From contig DAHXNY010000006.1 of the NCBI GenBank assembly GCA_027365175.1, forward strand, positions 1-47,538: a stretch of DNA of 47,538 bases, written 5' to 3'. The notes under the pieces are model-generated. The model was not told the DNA's origin, ran no database searches, and worked only from the letters and a program-made list of their open reading frames with translations. A program made the position numbers and the translations under genes. Within the stretch, counting starts at the first letter, position 1, and the number at the start of each line of letters is the position of its first letter. This DNA is from Microcaldota archaeon. GTDB lineage: Archaea > Micrarchaeota > Micrarchaeia > Micrarchaeales > CABMGC01. Shown one piece after another: positions 8,692 to 33,815 of the stretch.

Positions 8692-9366
8692 ATGAAGAAT
8701 AAGGAAGATGAAGACAAGAAGATTACTTATGTCAGGGTAGAATCGCTGATGGATCTGGCCAGGCTTGCCTTCGGCAACGACTTCTCCTCCAGGAACCTTT
8801 TCTGCTATCAGAAAGGGAGCATGTACAGAATTGCCATGCTTGGAGAGCATATAGCAAACAGCATTATAGCTTATTATGTGGATTCTGACAGAAAATGCAA
8901 GGGCATACTCTATGAGAGCAATGATTCGGGAGAAAGGGCAGATGTAAGCGATGCCGATCCGGGAATGGAGAAGGGATTCATAGATGTATTCGATATGGAT
9001 ATGGGGCATATGAAGGAAGGGAACGTAGACAGGAAGAATATCCAATTGGTAAAGACAGGTGCGGACAGCCTTGCCAAGATGGCTGTGAAGGCAGCCGTGC
9101 ATGACGAATTCATAAAGCATTTATACCTTTTTGCATACAAGGGAAAGCAGATAATAGGAGGATTTGAGCTTGTAGAGGAGCTGAACGACGATATAGGAAA
9201 CTTTTATTATGCAGTACTCCCAAAGGATGAGAAGGGAAACTTCGTCGCTTATGACTATAAGACAGGAAAGATAGAGTTCACGGAAAAGATAAGAGGATAT
9301 TCTTATATGTATCTGAAGATAATAAACCTCGCAGAGCCGTTCCCGTTCTTCAACGTGCCCGATTAG
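8692..9366 (+). CDS. unknown cytoplasmic protein overlapping tRNA-Asn
   Basis: The product is 224 residues with a charged N-terminus (KNKEDEDKKITYVRVESLM), no signal peptide, one central acidic segment (SNDSGERADVSDADPGME) and alternating strands near the end (KQIIGGFELVEELNDDIGNFYYAVLP). I do not recognise a family. It follows the secreted protein by 15 bases, so the two are probably one transcript. Its last three codons and TAG lie within the acceptor and position 8-9 region of tRNA-Asn, which starts at 9357; the mRNA could not stay full length if the tRNA were cut from the same transcript. Confidence 0.6.
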   Translation: MKNKEDEDKKITYVRVESLMDLARLAFGNDFSSRNLFCYQKGSMYRIAMLGEHIANSIIAYYVDSDRKCKGILYESNDSGERADVSDADPGMEKGFIDVFDMDMGHMKEGNVDRKNIQLVKTGADSLAKMAVKAAVHDEFIKHLYLFAYKGKQIIGGFELVEELNDDIGNFYYAVLPKDEKGNFVAYDYKTGKIEFTEKIRGYSYMYLKIINLAEPFPFFNVPD

Positions 9367-9427
9367 CTCAGTGGTAGAGCGCCTGGCTGTTAACCAGGAT
9401 GTCGCAGGTTCGACCCCTGCATCGGGC
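9357..9427 (+). tRNA. tRNA-Asn (GUU)
   Basis: The 71-base cloverleaf is complete. The acceptor stem pairs GCCCGAT with ATCGGGC (7 bp), D stem GCTC/GAGC, anticodon stem CCTGG/CCAGG around loop CTGTTAA (anticodon GTT), and T stem GCAGG/CCTGC around TTCGACC. Base 73 is G, as expected for tRNA-Asn. CCA is not encoded. The first ten bases overlap the end of the upstream coding region. Confidence 0.96.
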
Positions 9428-9474
9428 GATTCGCTTCGAGTTCTGCTCCACAGGCGGTAAAGTTACAGTAGACT

Positions 9475-10014
9475 TCACTCTTTCGCTTGCATCGGTTCAA
9501 TCAACTTTCCACTCCTTGCTACCTCGGGATCCGTGCACGTGCTGCGGTCAAAGCAGCACGCAGTTCGTTTTCCGGCCTTGAGTTTTGATAACGCTTTCAC
9601 GATCCTTATCTTACGCGTTTTAGGATTCCTGGTTCCGTTTATCCAGCGTATCCAATCCCAGCGTGCAAGTGGTGTGATGTCCAACCAAAGGTAGCGTGCC
9701 TTTGCGTCTGCTTCCAGAGCTTTCTTCAAATCTGCCGGTACTTTGGGTTCTGGCCACTCTTCGACCGGTTCGATTTCAAGCATTACTCGTTTCCCTACTA
9801 CTGCCCCTGCTTTGCGCATTGCTTTATCAATTTTAAGCCAGTGGCTCCTCTTCCCATCTGGTTCAAGAGGAGACTGAAAGTGAAAACTGTTGATGGTTCC
9901 GTTAATCATTGCCATGCCACGTGAGGGGAGCTTTGCACTTGCGCTCTTAGGAAGCCGGATTATAACCAATGAGCCAATCTTAACCGGTTCAGCTTTAAAA
10001 CTGATTTTCGCCAT
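9475..10014 (-). CDS. DUF1905 / YdeI-OmdA family protein
   Basis: The product is 179 residues. The N-terminal half is a DUF1905-type beta barrel (VIIRLPKSASAKL..., MAMINGTINSFHFQSPLEPDGKRSHWLKIDKAMRK). The second half carries the OmdA/YdeI pattern: VPADLKKALEADAKARYLWLDITPLARWDWIRWI, then a TRxxKTRKIRIVKALSKLKAGKR helix. The biochemical role of the family is unknown; some bacterial members are annotated as bacteriocin-protection or Omp-associated. It is convergent with tRNA-Asn, and its Arg codons include many CGT/CGC, unlike the AGG/AGA bias of the ribosomal operon. That fits acquisition beside a tRNA gene. Confidence 0.75.
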   Translation of the reverse strand: MAKISFKAEPVKIGSLVIIRLPKSASAKLPSRGMAMINGTINSFHFQSPLEPDGKRSHWLKIDKAMRKAGAVVGKRVMLEIEPVEEWPEPKVPADLKKALEADAKARYLWLDITPLARWDWIRWINGTRNPKTRKIRIVKALSKLKAGKRTACCFDRSTCTDPEVARSGKLIEPMQAKE

Positions 10015-10219
10015 GCTTAAATTAAGTCATTTAAATTATTTAAATGCATTCGCAAATTGATAGTATTTGAATGCCACAGACTGCCGTTGTTGCCATTCCG
10101 CCTGCAAATACCATAGTGGGGCTTGCCTTTCGGCGAGCTGATTAGCAGCACAGCCTTCCGTAAACATTAATTCTTGCTTCTTTTACTATCGAGGCATAGA
10201 ATATATGCAATAAGATATG

Positions 10220-10513
10220 CTACTTTGACTTTTTACCTAGTCGGGATTCGCTTCTGAAACCGATCCAGATGCCGTTGGGATCCTTGATGAAGCCCATTGT
10301 TATCTTCTTGCCATTGCTCTCGTGCTCCATTAGCTCCATGGCCGGCTTCATGCCTTTTTTAACCATTGCAGTGTACTTCTTCTTTGCATCAGGCACATCG
10401 AACATCAGGTGGTCAAGCTCCACGCCATCATCCTTCCAAGGCATGTACATCCTGCATTTCTTGCCGTACCACATAAGATTGAGCTTCTGCTTGTACAGGA
10501 AGAAATCTGACAA
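10220..10513 (-). pseudogene. C-terminal half of a VOC/glyoxalase-fold protein
   Basis: A TTG at 10513 opens 97 codons matching the second beta-alpha-beta-beta-beta module of a vicinal-oxygen-chelate protein: a KQKLNLMWY entry strand, GVELDHLMFDVPDAKKKYTAMVKKG, and a closing FIKDPNGIWIGF. The first module is missing and an in-frame TAG lies seven codons upstream, so this is not a start-site error. The expected metal ligand His is present (LDHLMF) but the final Glu is replaced (WIGF). The missing module is found on the opposite strand at 13274; see the finding on the inversion. Confidence 0.75.
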
Positions 10514-10522
10514 CGTGATAAT

Positions 10523-11014
10523 ATGCGCTACCTATCCGGCAATGAAGAGAACGAAGCTCTGGATTACCTGAATGCAGCTGCGCAGATTGCAAATAGCGCC
10601 ACTTGCAATAGGCATAAATGCGGCAGCGTAATAGTCAGCAATGGAAGCGTAATAGGGACAGGGATGAACTCTCCGCCTGCAAACAGGGAGAGCCAAAGAA
10701 GATGCTCCAATCGCAAAGAGTCTTACGATGGTCGTGTTACGGACAAGACCTGCTGCATGCATGCGGAGCAGAGGGCAATAATGGACGCGCTGAAAAAGAA
10801 TCCTGAAGAACTGCCAGGCTCCAGGCTATACTTCATAAGGCTGGCAGATGATGGTAAAATAGCAAAATCAGGAAAGCCCTACTGCACAATATGCAGCAAA
10901 ATGTCCCTTGACGCAGGCATAACGGAATTTGTATTGTGGCACGATGAAGGTATCTGTGTTTACGATGCCGAAGAATACAATGGGCTCTCCTATCAGTACA
11001 AAGACGAAAGGTAA
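10523..11014 (+). CDS. CMP/dCMP deaminase-family zinc protein
   Basis: The product is 163 residues. The zinc-dependent deaminase core is visible: a first strand CGSVIVSNGSVIGTG, the catalytic H-A-E at residues 80-82 (CCMHAEQRAI), and the second zinc motif P-Y-C-x-x-C with Cys 121 and 124. This resembles ComEB/dCMP deaminases, but the HAEQRA motif lacks the usual Asn of HAExNA, so the substrate (dCMP, cytidine or a modified base) is open. It starts ten bases from the broken VOC fragment, at a predicted inversion breakpoint, so its original promoter may have been changed. Confidence 0.8.
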   Translation: MRYLSGNEENEALDYLNAAAQIANSATCNRHKCGSVIVSNGSVIGTGMNSPPANRESQRRCSNRKESYDGRVTDKTCCMHAEQRAIMDALKKNPEELPGSRLYFIRLADDGKIAKSGKPYCTICSKMSLDAGITEFVLWHDEGICVYDAEEYNGLSYQYKDER

Positions 11015-11122
11015 TTAACGCAGCAAAAAGTCCTACCGGTAATAATAAATCAATGCAAGGATGCACTGCTTACACATATGCTCCGAGGCAAGCACTGCAT
11101 CCCGCATAAAACTCTAAATAAT

Positions 11123-11719
11123 CTATGAGGTGGTTGGTTTAGGCACCGTTACTGCATACCATACTCCTCCAAATGCATGCAGTCCGTTTCCATTCGTCTG
11201 CCCAGCAGCACTGTCCCCGGTGAACCGGTACAGCGGCCATCCATCATAGGTGAGCTGCGTTCCACCGCCAGTTCTCGTTATCGTGCCAAATGCAGAAGCG
11301 TTTATGCCTGTCTGTACGCTGAGTGCAGAGAGGTTGCCGCTGAACGTATAAGGAGGCCAATAGGTTGCACATGTGCCTGTGCAGGTGCTTGTCCTATATG
11401 GGGTATCTGTATTAAGAAGATATAGCGTAAAGCCATTTGAACTTTCAAGATAGTTGCCTATCGTTGGGCTGCTCCCCGCCATTACATTATACTTCTTTGT
11501 CGTATTTGATTGGCTTACCGAATTCGAAGGTGTTGTAGAATTCGCAACGCCAGTTGTGTTCTTGGCAGCACTCCTTGCAACTGTTGTTGCAACTGTAGTG
11601 TAACCAGCTGTTGTTACGCTGCCCGAATTGTTTTTCTGGCCAGAGAATGCCAAGGCCGCAATAGCCACTATCACTATCACCGCTATTACGCCGATTACTG
11701 CCATGCTGGATTGTTTCAT
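11123..11719 (-). CDS. secreted protein with YxFxxD-type (COG4315) repeats
   Basis: The product is 198 residues. An N-terminal hydrophobic segment (about residues 7-26) is followed by a Ser/Thr/Asn-rich linker, likely glycosylated, to about residue 80. The globular part carries two copies of the Y-x-(F/L)-x-x-D motif (LYLLNTD and LYRFTGD) and the CTGTCATYWPP segment typical of this lipoprotein-repeat family. No lipobox cysteine is seen, so it is probably anchored by the N-terminal helix. The function of the family is unknown; it is often found near redox and metal proteins. A palindrome at 11732-11744 lies between its TATA and its start. Confidence 0.75.
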   Translation of the reverse strand: MKQSSMAVIGVIAVIVIVAIAALAFSGQKNNSGSVTTAGYTTVATTVARSAAKNTTGVANSTTPSNSVSQSNTTKKYNVMAGSSPTIGNYLESSNGFTLYLLNTDTPYRTSTCTGTCATYWPPYTFSGNLSALSVQTGINASAFGTITRTGGGTQLTYDGWPLYRFTGDSAAGQTNGNGLHAFGGVWYAVTVPKPTTS

Positions 11720-11731
11720 TTAAATCACGTT

Positions 11732-11744
11732 ATAACCTGGTTAT
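11732..11744. promoter_or_regulatory. ATAACC-T-GGTTAT inverted repeat, probable operator
   Basis: The six-base arms are perfect reverse complements around one T. The site lies downstream of a leftward TATA-like TTTAAATAAATT (about 11748-11759) and upstream of the start at 11719, so a bound protein would block transcription start. Confidence 0.45.
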
Positions 11745-11792
11745 GTAATTTATTTAAACCTGCTGTGAATTGCACGTGTTCAATCTTAAGGA

Positions 11793-12179
11793 TCAGTGGC
11801 CGAGCAGACCAGGCACCACAAATATCGCAACCATGATGTTGATGAAGACTATCAGCGTTATAACCACATACAGCCAGTTTCTTTCATAAATGAATGACAA
11901 GACGGAGGCTATGACTCTGGCTATCGGCGTAATTATCAGAACTATTATCCCAAGAAGCATGAAGTCAAGGCCCTGGTAAGATAAAAGTCCATTTATCATA
12001 TCGGAAAAGGAGAACATGGAGGAGTTTATCTTGCTGCTAGTGCTTGCAAGTTCGCCTATGGGGAAGCCGTTGCTGCTTCCCTGCAGGAAGAGAAGCACAG
12101 CTCCTATCATTATCAGAATAATGCTTATTACTACTCCTATCTTGAGGACATAAGCTATACTATCATTCATCTCCATCAT
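11793..12179 (-). CDS. DUF1634 membrane protein
   Basis: The product is 128 residues with three predicted TM segments (about residues 9-33, 68-90 and 101-124) and the GLDFMLLGIIVLIITPIARVIASV region characteristic of DUF1634. The family is nearly always encoded with a TauE/SafE permease and probably forms part of the same exporter. Here the ATG overlaps the end of the TauE gene by four bases, which indicates translational coupling. Confidence 0.85.
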   Translation of the reverse strand: MMEMNDSIAYVLKIGVVISIILIMIGAVLLFLQGSSNGFPIGELASTSSKINSSMFSFSDMINGLLSYQGLDFMLLGIIVLIITPIARVIASVLSFIYERNWLYVVITLIVFINIMVAIFVVPGLLGH

Positions 12180-13030
12180 GCAACACCAATGCCTCTCAAT
12201 ATCATCTGAACCGCTATAACCCCAAGAAGTATCAGGAAGAGCAAGCGTATCTTCTGGCTTGCTGTTTTCTCCAGAAGCTTGGATCCGAGATAAGCTCCTG
12301 CCAATATGCCTATGACTGCTGGAGCCACTATAAACGGCTGTATGTATCCCAACGCCCAGTATATGGCGCTGCTAGTAGCTGCTGTAACTCCTATCATGAA
12401 GTTGCTTGTAGATGTGGTTACCTTCATGGGCAGCCTCATTCCCCTGTTCATGCCCATTACCTTCAATACCCCTCCGCCTATGCCAAGCAGTCCTGACATC
12501 AGCCCTCCTCCTCCGCTTACCAGCTCTCCAAGCCACCACCTATATCCAGAATACTTTATCATCTTTTTCTCAGCCTTGTCGTAATAACTTCCAGAGAGCT
12601 GGAAGAAATCGGTGCTCCAGTCCCTGTACATTCTCTTTCTATGCCTCCTCTTGTATTCCTTGTAAGTAGGATAAAGCGAGAGCAGAAGCACCACTCCGAA
12701 TATTATGAATAGGTAGCTGCTTATGCCATTTGCGTATATGTATGCCGCAAGCAGCGAACCAGCTATGGCTCCCAGGGTAGTGGCCACTTCCAGCGACATC
12801 CCTATCCTTATGTTGGAAAGCCTGTCCTTCACATATGCGCTAGCAGCACCGCTTGACGTGGCTATTGTAGATACAAGGCTTGCACCTGCCGCATACTCTA
12901 AGGGTATGCCGAAAAGCAGAGTGAGCGCAGGGACAATTACTACTCCTCCACCAAGCCCGCTCATTGATCCAACGATGCCTGCTGCAAAACCAGCGAGTAG
13001 CAGGGCTATGAAATATGCAATCGCAATCAT
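12176..13030 (-). CDS. TauE/SafE-family sulfite/anion exporter
   Basis: The ATG at 13030 gives 284 residues; a TTG at 13039 would add three. The protein has eight or so TM segments in two halves, each opening with the family's Gly-rich motif: GSMSGLGGGVVIVPAL near residue 25 and GLLGIGGGVLKVMGM near residue 185. A central cytoplasmic loop (about 125-165) is charged. The family exports sulfite, sulfonates or related anions; the substrate cannot be told from sequence. It is in an operon with DUF1634. Confidence 0.9.
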   Translation of the reverse strand: MIAIAYFIALLLAGFAAGIVGSMSGLGGGVVIVPALTLLFGIPLEYAAGASLVSTIATSSGAASAYVKDRLSNIRIGMSLEVATTLGAIAGSLLAAYIYANGISSYLFIIFGVVLLLSLYPTYKEYKRRHRKRMYRDWSTDFFQLSGSYYDKAEKKMIKYSGYRWWLGELVSGGGGLMSGLLGIGGGVLKVMGMNRGMRLPMKVTTSTSNFMIGVTAATSSAIYWALGYIQPFIVAPAVIGILAGAYLGSKLLEKTASQKIRLLFLILLGVIAVQMILRGIGVA

Positions 13031-13056
13031 GTAGCTCAAAAGTATTTATAAGTGAA

Positions 13057-13068
13057 AGTTATATAACT
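13057..13068. promoter_or_regulatory. 12-bp palindrome upstream of the TauE promoter
   Basis: AGTTATATAACT is its own reverse complement. The leftward TATA-like TTATAAATA (13043-13051) lies between it and the TauE start. It resembles the GTTATAA-core palindromes elsewhere in the window. Confidence 0.4.
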
Positions 13069-13273
13069 GATTACATATCGCATACGCAACAAACGTTTTT
13101 AATGACGGCACTGCACATGATTGCTGCAATCTGGAGGTAACCAAAAGATCCACAGAGAGAAGAACCGGACAAAGCAACGTTGAAGCCGATGCTGCACTAG
13201 CATTGCAAAAAAGGAGCGGGAAAAGCCTGTATATTATTTATTGATTTGCTTCCATATTATACTGGTGAAAGAT

Positions 13274-13513
13274 ATGGGATTAATGTATACTAGCATAAGA
13301 GTCAAGGACATGAAGAAGTCTCTCGCTTTCTACTCCAAGTACCTTGGATTGAAGGTGATAGGCAGAAGGGAGCCTATTCCAGATGAACTTGTCGTGAGCT
13401 TAGAAGACAAGTCTACCAAGCAGACGCTATACATGATCTTGATTAACTTATTAAAGTTTAATCCGCATAATATAGAGAGGTTGCCCTTCTGTTTATGGAT
13501 CAGATTCCGGTGA
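13274..13513 (+). pseudogene. N-terminal half of a VOC/glyoxalase-fold protein
   Basis: The ATG at 13274 gives 79 residues. Residues 1-54 are the first VOC module (YTSIRVKDMKKSLAFYSKYLGLKVIGR, then VVSLEDKSTKQTLYM). After about residue 54 the sequence becomes unrelated and ends in a short tail. The second module is absent here but occurs reversed at 10220-10513. The usual first metal ligand His is Tyr (LMYTSIRV). The remnant now lies directly upstream of the YHS gene, so it may be transcribed with the copper operon. Confidence 0.72.
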
Positions 13514-13517
13514 GATA

Positions 13518-13655
13518 ATGAATGACCCCGTGTGCATGATGGAAGTGGATGAAAGGTCGCCGTTTAAAAGCAGTTATAACGGCAAGGTTTATGTCTTCTG
13601 CTCTGCAGTATGCAAACAGAGCTTTGACAAGAACCCTGCCCCATATGTGAAATGA
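13518..13655 (+). CDS. stand-alone YHS-domain mini protein
   Basis: The 45-residue product is one YHS domain: NDPVCMMEVDE at the start, a YNGKVYVFCS strand, and CKQSFDKNP at the end. The three Cys positions (6, 28, 33) match those that bind metal in YHS/TRASH domains. A GGTGA Shine-Dalgarno sequence five bases upstream supports the ATG. The same domain is fused to the copper ATPase two genes on. It probably acts as a metal chaperone or sensor delivering copper to the pump. Confidence 0.82.
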   Translation: MNDPVCMMEVDERSPFKSSYNGKVYVFCSAVCKQSFDKNPAPYVK

Positions 13656-13662
13656 TGATAGA

Positions 13663-13812
13663 ATGACAGTATACCAGTGCAGCATATGCAAACTGCATTA
13701 TGGGAGCAAGGAATTGGCTGAAGAGTGCCATAAGTGGTGTTCGACGCATAACAGCTGCAATTTCCAAACTGCCAGACAATCTGTAGAAGCTATACAGAAG
13801 AACAAGGATTGA
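13663..13812 (+). CDS. Cys/His-rich mini protein of the copper operon
   Basis: The product is 49 residues. The pattern Y-x-C-x-x-C-x-L-H-Y, then ELAEECHKWC and HNSCN, gives five Cys and three His, which suggests one or two metal sites. Similar small CxxC...ECxxWCxxHxSCN proteins occur beside archaeal metal-resistance genes, as I remember them; the family has no name that I can give. It lies between the YHS mini protein and the YHS-ATPase with gaps of 7 and 4 bases, so one transcript is likely. Confidence 0.7.
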   Translation: MTVYQCSICKLHYGSKELAEECHKWCSTHNSCNFQTARQSVEAIQKNKD

Positions 13813-13816
13813 GTTT

Positions 13817-15886
13817 GTGGCCAACGATCCCGTATGCGGAATGTATGTTGATGAGAAAAACACCTCTCTGACCAGTGATAACGAAGGCAAGAGGTATTAT
13901 TTCTGCAGCACTGCATGCAAGCTCCAGTTCGATAGGCCGGAACTTGAGATGAAGATACTGAAGAGAGCTCTTGCTGTTTCATGGCCTCTGACCATAATAG
14001 TCGCTGTGCTGACATATCTGCTTAGGCTTGGTTACGGCAACTATATCATGCTCGCGCTTGCCAGCATAGTCCAGTTTTATTCAGGAAGGAGATTCTATGC
14101 AGGCATAATAGACGCTGTTAAGAATAGGTCTGCGAATATGGACACGCTGATAGCGATAGGCACGACCGCAGCGTGGTCTTATAGCGCGGTCGTGACTATC
14201 TTCCCTTATTTCTTCCCTTCAGGAGGGATCTTCTTCGATACTTCCACCATAATAATATCGCTCATACTTACGGGAACCTACCTGCAGAGGCTTGCTGAAG
14301 AGAAGGCTTCGGTAGCAGTATCAGCCCTTACTTCGTTGCAGTCAAAGACAGCGCATGTGATAAATGGAAATAGCGTTAAGGATGTGCCTTTGGAGCAGAT
14401 TGAGGAGAAGGATACGCTTCTTATCAGGCCTGGGGAGCGGGTGCCGACCGATGCCGTAATAATCGGAGGGGAGAGCTCTGTAGACGAATCCATGATTACC
14501 GGAGAGAGCATGCCTGTAACGAAAGGCGTCGGTGACAGCATAACTGGAGGCACGATAAACGTCACAGGAGCAGTGAAGGTCAAGGTCGTTAAGGTAGGGG
14601 ATGATACAACACTTGCGCAGATAATAAGGATCGTCAGAGATGCCGCTTCAAGCAAAGTGCCAATACAAAGGCTTGCTGACAAGGTAGCCTCTTATTTCGT
14701 ACCTGCAGTCGTACTGATAGGCGTATTGTCATCGCTCGCATGGTACTTCTTAGGAGGAGTGGGGCTCAACATCGCCATATTGATATTCGTCAGCGTGCTG
14801 ATAATAGCGTGTCCGTGTGCTCTTGGCATAGCTACTCCTGCTGCCTTGCTGGTATCTTCTGGAAAAGCTGCAAGGAAGGGAATATTGGTCAAGAGCGGAG
14901 AGAGCCTGCAGATTGCGAGCAAGGTAAATACAGTGGTACTTGACAAGACAGGCACGCTTACAAAAGGCAGGCCAGAGGTTACTGACATCGTCCCGCTCTC
15001 AGTTTATGACGATAAGCAGATACTCGGATTTGCTGCTGTCGCTGAGATGAATTCCGAACATGTGCTTGGCAGAGCCATAACTGCCAGGGCAAATGAAAAA
15101 GGGATTAAGGCAGACTTCCCAAAGAGCTTCAGCTACAGGCAGGGATTCGGAGTCATAGCCGTAGACAAGGAAGGGAGGGAGATAACTGTTGGAAACGCTG
15201 AGCTTTTCGGCAATACAGTATCAGAAGAGGCAAGGGGGCAGCTGCAGAGGCTCGAGGCAGATGGCAAAACCGCACTGGTAGTCAGGATCGGAGGTTCTGT
15301 AGCAGGAATCATAGCGCTTGCGGATGTGCTTAGAGGGGATAGCAAAAGAGCGATGGATGCGCTACGGAAGAATGGGATAGAGATATGGCTTGTTACGGGA
15401 GACAATCAGAATGTTGCAGAAGCTGTCGCGAAGCAGCTTGGCATAAAGAATGTCATCTCAAAAGCAAAGCCCGGGCAGAAGATGGAGAAGATAGTTGAGC
15501 TGCAGAAGAAAGGCAAGGTGGTGGCGATGGTCGGGGACGGTATAAATGATGCACCAGCACTCACCAAAGCAGACCTTGGAATCGCAATAGGTGCAGGCAC
15601 TGAGGTTGCTGCACAGGCAGGAGGAATAGTGCTTATAGAGAGTAAGGTATACAATGTGTATGTTGCCCTGGAGCTTGGCAAGAAGACCATGTCGAAGATA
15701 AGACAGAATCTTTTCTGGGCCTTCGGGTACAACATTGTTCTGATACCGATAGCTGCCGGTGCGCTGATACCAGTATTTACAATAAGCATATATCAGATCC
15801 TGCCGGTGCTTGCAGCGTTTGCAATGGCATTCAGCTCTGTAACTGTTGTATTGAATTCGCTTCTTCTTGGCAGGTTCAGGGCGTAG
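13817..15886 (+). CDS. copA: copper-transporting P1B-type ATPase with N-terminal YHS domain
   Basis: The product is 689 residues from a GTG. Residues about 1-45 are a YHS domain in place of the usual HMA domain. Eight TM segments follow. The actuator TGES is near residue 228, the ion-binding CPC motif (ACPCALGIATP) near 333, the phosphorylation loop DKTGTLTKG near 376, and the hinge GDGINDAP near 573. HP-type nucleotide-binding residues are present around SEHVLGRAI. These place it among Cu+ (or Ag+) exporters. It is the third gene of a metal operon with two small Cys-rich proteins. Cu+ efflux is the expected role in an acidic, metal-rich habitat. Confidence 0.93.
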   Translation: MANDPVCGMYVDEKNTSLTSDNEGKRYYFCSTACKLQFDRPELEMKILKRALAVSWPLTIIVAVLTYLLRLGYGNYIMLALASIVQFYSGRRFYAGIIDAVKNRSANMDTLIAIGTTAAWSYSAVVTIFPYFFPSGGIFFDTSTIIISLILTGTYLQRLAEEKASVAVSALTSLQSKTAHVINGNSVKDVPLEQIEEKDTLLIRPGERVPTDAVIIGGESSVDESMITGESMPVTKGVGDSITGGTINVTGAVKVKVVKVGDDTTLAQIIRIVRDAASSKVPIQRLADKVASYFVPAVVLIGVLSSLAWYFLGGVGLNIAILIFVSVLIIACPCALGIATPAALLVSSGKAARKGILVKSGESLQIASKVNTVVLDKTGTLTKGRPEVTDIVPLSVYDDKQILGFAAVAEMNSEHVLGRAITARANEKGIKADFPKSFSYRQGFGVIAVDKEGREITVGNAELFGNTVSEEARGQLQRLEADGKTALVVRIGGSVAGIIALADVLRGDSKRAMDALRKNGIEIWLVTGDNQNVAEAVAKQLGIKNVISKAKPGQKMEKIVELQKKGKVVAMVGDGINDAPALTKADLGIAIGAGTEVAAQAGGIVLIESKVYNVYVALELGKKTMSKIRQNLFWAFGYNIVLIPIAAGALIPVFTISIYQILPVLAAFAMAFSSVTVVLNSLLLGRFRA

Positions 15887-32126: not shown

Positions 32127-33395
32127 TCAATACCATCCGCGGGTCTTCATCGCGGCAGCAACCCTGCTTACCGCTATTATATATGCAGCCTCCCTGGGAG
32201 TCAACTTCTTCCCTTTTGCCGCGTATTCCGTCTGTGTCTTCATCACGTCGTGGAAGGATCTTGTCACTATCTTGTCCAGCTTCGAGTATACCTCGTCTAT
32301 GTCCCAGTAATAGCCCTGCAGGTTCTGCACCCACTCGAAGTATGAGACTATGACCCCTCCTGAATTAACAAGGAAGTCAGGAAGATCCACTATCCCTTTC
32401 TCAAAGAGTATCTCATCGGCTTCAGGAGTTACAGGACCGTTTGCAAGCTCTAGAAGCAGTGGCACATTTATCTTGTCTGCATTGCTTCCGGTTATCTGGT
32501 TCTCCATCGCTGCCGGTATCAGCACGTCAGCCTTGAGCTCAAGCAGCTTCTCGTTTGATATCTTCTCTGCGTTTTTGTCTGCATATCCCTGTATGCTTCC
32601 GGTCTTCTCCTTTGCGGCATCCAGCTTTGCAAGGTCAAGGCCGTCTTCGGAATAGATGCCGCCCTTCGAATCGCTTATTGCAATTACATTTGCTCCTATA
32701 TTATGCGCAAGTTCGAAGGCGAATTTGCCTGCGTTTCCGAATCCCTGTATTATCACCTTCGCGCCCTTCAGATTTATCTTAAGCTTGTTTGCCGCTTCTC
32801 TCATCACATACATGCCGCCCATTGCCGTCGAGTCAAACCTGCCTTCAGATCCCCATACCTCTACGGGCTTGCCTGTGAGTACGCCGAATGAATTATATCC
32901 CTTTAAAGCGCTGTACTCATCCATCATCCATGCCATTATCTGCGGGTTGGTGTACACATCTGGTGCAAGTATGTCAGTCTCAGGGCCTATCTCCCTCTGG
33001 ATAGAGCGTATATAACCTCTTGACATCCGCTCCACTTCGGAATCGCTCATTTTCTTGGTGTCGCATATTATTCCTCCCTTTCCTCCTCCGAAAGGAAGAT
33101 TTGCGAGAGAGCACTTCCATGTCATCCATGCGGAGAGCGCCTTTACAGTGTCTATGTTTTCCTGCGGATGGTATCTCACTCCGCCCTTTGCAGGTCCGCG
33201 TGCCGTATTGTATCTTACTCTGAAACCGGTGAATACCTCCACGGAACCGTCGTCCATACGTACGGGCATGGTTGTCTCCAGGGTGTTCATAGGTTCTCGC
33301 AGTATCGCGTGGGCAGTCTTGTCAAGCTGCATCTTCTCTGCTGCCTTGTCCAACTGTAGCTGTGAAATCTTGAAAGGGTTTAGTTCTTCAGCCAT
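32127..33395 (-). CDS. gdhA: glutamate dehydrogenase (Glu/Leu/Phe/Val family)
   Basis: The product is 422 residues, the normal archaeal length. The catalytic Lys is in LPFGGGKGGI, the substrate-binding GFRVRYNTARGPAKGGVRYHP precedes it, and the Rossmann loop is IIQGFGNAGKFAFELA. A C-terminal helix contains NSGGVIVSYFEW. It interconverts glutamate and 2-oxoglutarate plus ammonia; cofactor preference is not clear from the dinucleotide loop. It is convergent with PolX. Confidence 0.95.
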   Translation of the reverse strand: MAEELNPFKISQLQLDKAAEKMQLDKTAHAILREPMNTLETTMPVRMDDGSVEVFTGFRVRYNTARGPAKGGVRYHPQENIDTVKALSAWMTWKCSLANLPFGGGKGGIICDTKKMSDSEVERMSRGYIRSIQREIGPETDILAPDVYTNPQIMAWMMDEYSALKGYNSFGVLTGKPVEVWGSEGRFDSTAMGGMYVMREAANKLKINLKGAKVIIQGFGNAGKFAFELAHNIGANVIAISDSKGGIYSEDGLDLAKLDAAKEKTGSIQGYADKNAEKISNEKLLELKADVLIPAAMENQITGSNADKINVPLLLELANGPVTPEADEILFEKGIVDLPDFLVNSGGVIVSYFEWVQNLQGYYWDIDEVYSKLDKIVTRSFHDVMKTQTEYAAKGKKLTPREAAYIIAVSRVAAAMKTRGWY

Positions 33396-33452
33396 TTTAT
33401 CACTTGATATATTTGCTTAAATATATGCATTGAAATTGATAAAGATTATTTG

Positions 33453-33815
33453 TCAGGAATTATAGTATTCCGCCAGTCTCTCGCAAAGGGAGTTTATATC
33501 ATTTTCAACCGCTGACCTTCCCTTCTTCTTTACTATGCTCTCTATTATGTCATTATACAGCATCCCTTCTTCTATGTGTTTCTTCACTTCGCCAACATCT
33601 CCCGAGTATCTGCCGTTCATGTACTTGCTTACAGCTGCCTGCGCTATGCCTAGTTCAGCAGCTATGCTCTCCTGGCCGTATCCCATATCCGAAAGCTTCT
33701 CTGCAACAGATGCCCTTACAGCAGGAAGCATGAGATTGGTTATGTGCATGCAGTACATCTGCCCGAGCTTCTTCGGATTCAACATAGTAGATTTGTCCTT
33801 TTCCTGCATATTCAA
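33453..33815 (-). CDS. XRE-like helix-turn-helix regulator (COG2522 type)
   Basis: The product is 118-120 residues, from the TTG at 33815 or the ATG at 33809. Archaeal features are the N-terminal MLPAVRASVAEKLSDMGYGQESIAAELGIAQAAVSKYMNG, in which the Q-E-S-I-A-A-E-L-G-I-A-Q-A-A-V-S-K-Y segment is the recognition HTH. The C-terminal half is charged and probably dimerises. Lying three bases after the RpiB-fold gene, it is co-transcribed with it. Confidence 0.8.
   Translation of the reverse strand: MNMQEKDKSTMLNPKKLGQMYCMHITNLMLPAVRASVAEKLSDMGYGQESIAAELGIAQAAVSKYMNGRYSGDVGEVKKHIEEGMLYNDIIESIVKKKGRSAVENDINSLCERLAEYYNS

Follow-up and report, generated by a model that had tools for sequence, protein, structure and literature searches.

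Two described kinds of rearrangement resemble the locus analyzed here. Invertons, the recombinase-driven invertible DNA elements of phase variation, are inverted segments bounded by inverted repeats (PMC11892184). In inversions at short inverted repeats (microhomology), for example those attributed to template switching, the segment between the repeats is likewise flipped, and in yeast coding sequences such spacer inversions were confined to repeats with arms of more than 9 bp (PMC8604942). The window, the whole stretch of 47,538 nucleotides that was analyzed, is contig C26 of a 795-kb archaeal draft genome (29 contigs, about 89% complete), and it contains a segment flipped between short inverted repeats that separates the two halves of a gene of the VOC superfamily (Glyoxalase, PF00903). 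A single inversion of about 2.9 kb, which took place in this lineage after its split from the lineage of the congener G001, is in our assessment highly likely to have broken this gene. Our search of the literature on intragenic invertons, archaeal invertons and micrarchaeal rearrangements returned nothing on this locus. The features are listed in Table 1.

Table 1. Features at the split VOC gene and in its surroundings (positions in the window)
Feature	Position	Strand	Remarks
DUF1905/OmdA (YdeI-like) gene	9475..10014	-	PF08922 + PF13376; left of the inversion
C-terminal VOC/glyoxalase-fold piece	10220..10492	-	KQKLNLMWYGKK... to stop; PF00903 positions 71-121; 53-66% identity with five intact relatives (C-terminal part)
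Left breakpoint repeat	10482..10493	-	CAAGCAGAAGCT on the minus strand
Inverted segment (about 2.9 kb)	10494..13416		Holds deaminase, secreted-repeat surface protein, DUF1634, TauE and N-terminal VOC piece; orientation relative to YHS/CopA opposite to that in G001, G003, G005 and G071
dCMP/cytidine deaminase-like gene	10523..11014	+	PF00383; 85% identical to G001 gene (opposite orientation relative to CopA); forms a divergent pair with the C-terminal VOC piece in the window
Secreted repeat (Lipoprotein_15) surface protein	11123..11719	-	PF03640; 76% identical in G001
DUF1634 membrane protein	11793..12179	-	PF07843; 89% identical in G001
TauE/SafE sulfite-exporter-like permease	12176..13039	-	PF01925; 95% identical in G001
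N-terminal VOC piece	13274..13428	+	MGLMYTSIRV...EDKSTKQ; PF00903 positions 4-35; 54-73% identity with five intact relatives (N-terminal part)
Right breakpoint repeat	13417..13428	+	CAAGCAGACGCT; corresponds to CAGGCAGGCGTT in the intergenic DNA of G001 (uninverted)
YHS-domain protein, heads CopA-type ATPase operon	13518..13656	+	PF04945; first gene past the right breakpoint, outside the inversion; likewise beside the deaminase start in G001
P-type ATPase (CopA-like)	13817..15886	+	PF00122, PF00702, PF04945; 90% identical in G001; outside the inversion, orientation reference

The first-pass annotation had placed two VOC halves at 10220-10513 (minus strand) and 13274-13513 (plus strand), both carrying a K-Q junction, and had proposed that flipping the intervening segment restores one VOC open reading frame (ORF) of about 138 residues. 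Both ORFs were confirmed at these places; no single intact ORF is present, and the gene consists of two opposite-strand pieces 2.9 kb apart. The ORF from 13274 (plus strand) starts MGLMYTSIRVKDMKKSLAFY, encodes the domain's first half as far as EDKSTKQ and, past the K-Q, extends to 13513 with 29 residues that bear no visible relation to the VOC family. The mechanically called ORF of the C-terminal piece has a TTG start at 10513, within non-homologous sequence. Against PF00903 (curated cut-off 20.6), the separate pieces score 27.3 bits (plus strand) and 26.2 bits (minus strand), and the 138 joined residues score 58.8 bits over positions 4-121 of 121, so that the match of the restored protein to the family is full-length, the difference from other family members being that the gene is broken in the window. 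A search of the genome found no second copy of either half, both being single copy, and the one other PF00903 match in the genome is on contig C3.

Relatives with the joined gene, which the first-pass annotation had predicted, were found as intact single ORFs in five archaeal genomes. The closest named match, recovered by a scan of genome contigs, comes from a lake-sediment bin (L009) assigned to Candidatus Micrarchaeota and shares 64% identity with residues 1-129 of the joined protein; on the strength of this match, the organism of the window is probably a micrarchaeote or closely allied to one. An order-wide search yielded the genes of G036, G069, G106 and G126. In a multiple alignment with these five relatives, the joined window protein crosses the break without a gap, the joint STKQ + KLNLMWY corresponding to STKQRINLMWY in G126 and ATKQRLNLMWY in L009, and this alignment therefore strongly supports an origin of the two pieces from a single gene. 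Formally, two paralogous VOC genes at the two places, each without the opposite half, would yield the same two pieces. However, the pieces are complementary to the codon and overlap by no more than the K-Q, no alignment of either flank continues into the missing half, both pieces lie in the orientation that an inversion requires, and the intervening segment is independently shown to be inverted; the synteny with G001 described below largely refutes the paralogue reading, to which we give a vanishingly small chance. As regards orientation, G069, which belongs to a further genus of the family, carries an intact VOC gene and TauE in divergent orientation, separated by one TPR gene, which is the relative orientation expected once the window is un-flipped. 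The neighbors of the VOC genes of L009, G036, G106 and G126 show no match to the window flanks or to the segment and are uninformative in this respect. No VOC relatives were found in viral contigs, and there is no sign of a viral carrier.

Evidence for a former single gene is complemented by that for inversion of the segment. On one contig of G001, TauE, DUF1634 and the surface protein (all plus) are followed by the deaminase (minus) and by YHS, a small gene and CopA (plus), and further on past CopA the genes are the same as in the window; in the window itself the order is deaminase (plus), surface protein, DUF1634 and TauE (minus), the N-terminal VOC piece (plus) and then YHS and CopA (plus). 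The proteins of the segment are 76-95% identical between the two genomes. One contig of G003 carries the left-flank genes (KH/S3-like, g7846 and g8692), then TauE, DUF1634 and the surface protein (all plus) and the YHS domain, so that both sides are seen together in the uninverted state; in G005 and G071 (another genus), TauE is co-directional with YHS/CopA. Thus, opposite orientation between conserved flanks, as expected of a chromosomal inversion, was found in G001, G003, G005 and G071, and judging by this gene order the window therefore is the derived state. Furthermore, the DNA between the deaminase and YHS genes of G001 aligns across both breakpoint flanks of the window (the deaminase side of the left one and the YHS side of the right one), and the un-flipped window joint gives one continuous local alignment with G001, with a score of 391, compared with 213 and 136 for the separate flanks. 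The single inversion of about 2.9 kb that the first-pass annotation preferred is supported by the intact relatives together with the oppositely oriented segment, which it had likewise anticipated in relatives and which in G001 extends to a nucleotide-level match at the joint; neither of the outcomes that it named as contrary, two separate intact VOC genes at the two sites or the lack of any strain with the joined gene, was seen. No genome of this genus was found to combine an intact VOC gene with the whole uninverted segment, which would be the exact ancestral arrangement, as the five congeners searched yielded no intact VOC gene; the left ancestral joint is visible in outline only (G069 and G003).

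The one-mismatch inverted repeats noticed at the break in the first-pass annotation are indeed present at both breakpoints, although they are slightly longer than noted: CAAGCAGAAGCT (reverse complement of 10482-10493) and CAAGCAGACGCT (13417-13428) match over 12 nt with one mismatch, 8 nt being exact, and share the pattern CAAGCAGA-x-GCT, inverted relative to each other. By itself the repeat carries little weight because inverted pairs of equal quality are plentiful nearby, with about 38 in the 4 kb around; its coincidence with a given pair of breakpoints is rare by chance, an in-register match this good at the break having a frequency of 4.5e-5 among random position pairs. The coding copy consists of the K-Q codons, which are common to L009 and G126, and the other copy has a counterpart in the intergenic region of G001, which reads CAGGCAGGCGTTATACAT at the place of CAAGCAGACGCTATACAT in the window. 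Therefore, both copies very likely predate the event, one in the gene and the other in the intergenic region, and the exchange probably used them. Elsewhere in the 795-kb genome the repeat occurs once more; its interpretation as a multi-copy recombination site was dropped on this account.

Chimeras at short inverted repeats are known to arise in multiple displacement amplification, and if the source had been so amplified, the inverted order in this fragmented, incomplete draft might itself be chimeric, the real genome carrying an intact gene. However, both joints are present and consistent, which would take two independent chimeras at the same 12-nt repeat, and a repeat of this length is shorter than assembler k-mers and should not mislead a de Bruijn assembler. 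An assembly or amplification artefact is accordingly highly improbable.

The inverted repeats at both ends of the segment are also what a reversible switch would have, one in which repeated flipping of the segment within the population turns the VOC gene, and possibly expression of the deaminase, on and off. The pieces, which contain no stops or frameshifts and show no visible decay, fit such a switch as well. Unlike invertons, however, the window has no recombinase in or beside the segment, and its repeat is very short and imperfect and found at only one other place in the genome. Nor is the site conserved: the codons of the relatives differ there, and the intergenic copy of G001 differs at several bases. 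No match to the serine recombinase family (PF00239) was found in the genome, and the only tyrosine recombinase (PF00589) match is on another contig and apparently truncated at the amino end. We consider a reversible switch very unlikely. As a separate observation, in L059:914-1973 (G000 contig C27, about 32413-33472) the first 95 residues are surface-protein-like, 62% identical to a gene on contig C24, and run into a tyrosine recombinase frame that seems to be without its amino-terminal part; it may be another rearrangement joint or a surface-gene cassette linked to a recombinase.

Of the 48 positions at which the other sequences do not vary, the VOC pieces conserve 42 (0.875), a value within the range of the intact genes (0.75-1.0). 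As their reading frames are also undisrupted, the gene was probably broken recently compared with the divergence among members of the genus; undecayed pieces would fit a recent loss as well as a polymorphic state.

In the one-time inversion that we favor, one breakpoint would lie inside the VOC coding sequence, at the K-Q codons, and the other in the region between the deaminase and YHS genes, with exchange via microhomology, most likely through template switching or through break repair with annealing of the short repeats. The yeast inversions affect 2-5 bases inside hairpins (PMC8604942), whereas the spacer in the window is 2.9 kb, and annealing of distant short repeats in break repair is therefore as plausible. 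The outcome would be a broken, and presumably dispensable, VOC gene. The N-terminal piece appears to keep its upstream region and may yield a truncated product of 79 residues; since, in addition, the stop codon of its ORF is followed after 4 bp by the YHS start codon, the old VOC promoter may now drive transcription into the YHS-CopA operon, which also retains an A+T-rich upstream region of its own. For the C-terminal piece, no promoter is evident. In the window, 9 bp separate the start of the deaminase from that of the C-terminal ORF; in G001, a TATA-like element is located about 40 bp upstream of the deaminase, and the corresponding sequence of the window is beyond the right breakpoint, so that the deaminase has probably lost this element and changed its promoter. 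A slow, recombinase-independent switch, trading a working VOC gene for altered deaminase expression and coupling of the VOC promoter to the YHS-CopA metal-efflux operon, would draw on the same effects; the chance of this is very slim.

The inversion is very probably real and represents a known, ordinary kind of rearrangement. Its wider effect is local and its general interest modest, but it offers a clean case of a small inversion at microhomology that inactivates a gene. The genome is a reduced one from an uncultured archaeon, and both the derived state and most of the ancestral one can be seen. For annotation, the case is a warning: what would be recorded as two 'small VOC proteins' are fragments of one broken gene.

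Several minor observations concern the surroundings of the segment. Between YHS and CopA, the window contains a small cysteine/histidine-rich ORF (13664-13813) that is 67% identical in G001. In G003 (L032) and G005 (L031) the deaminase gene lies between CopA and the g15951 homologue, whereas G001 and the un-flipped window have it between the surface protein gene and YHS; judging by these differing positions, it has therefore moved within the genus. The interval between g8692 and TauE, which in the un-flipped window comprises 9366-10220 and 13039-13274, differs in gene content from congener to congener: it holds the YdeI-like and VOC genes in the window, a permease, a toxin-antitoxin-like pair and others in G001, and yet others in G003, the gene families of the latter two having been read by eye only. 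This interval appears to be a site of gene turnover.
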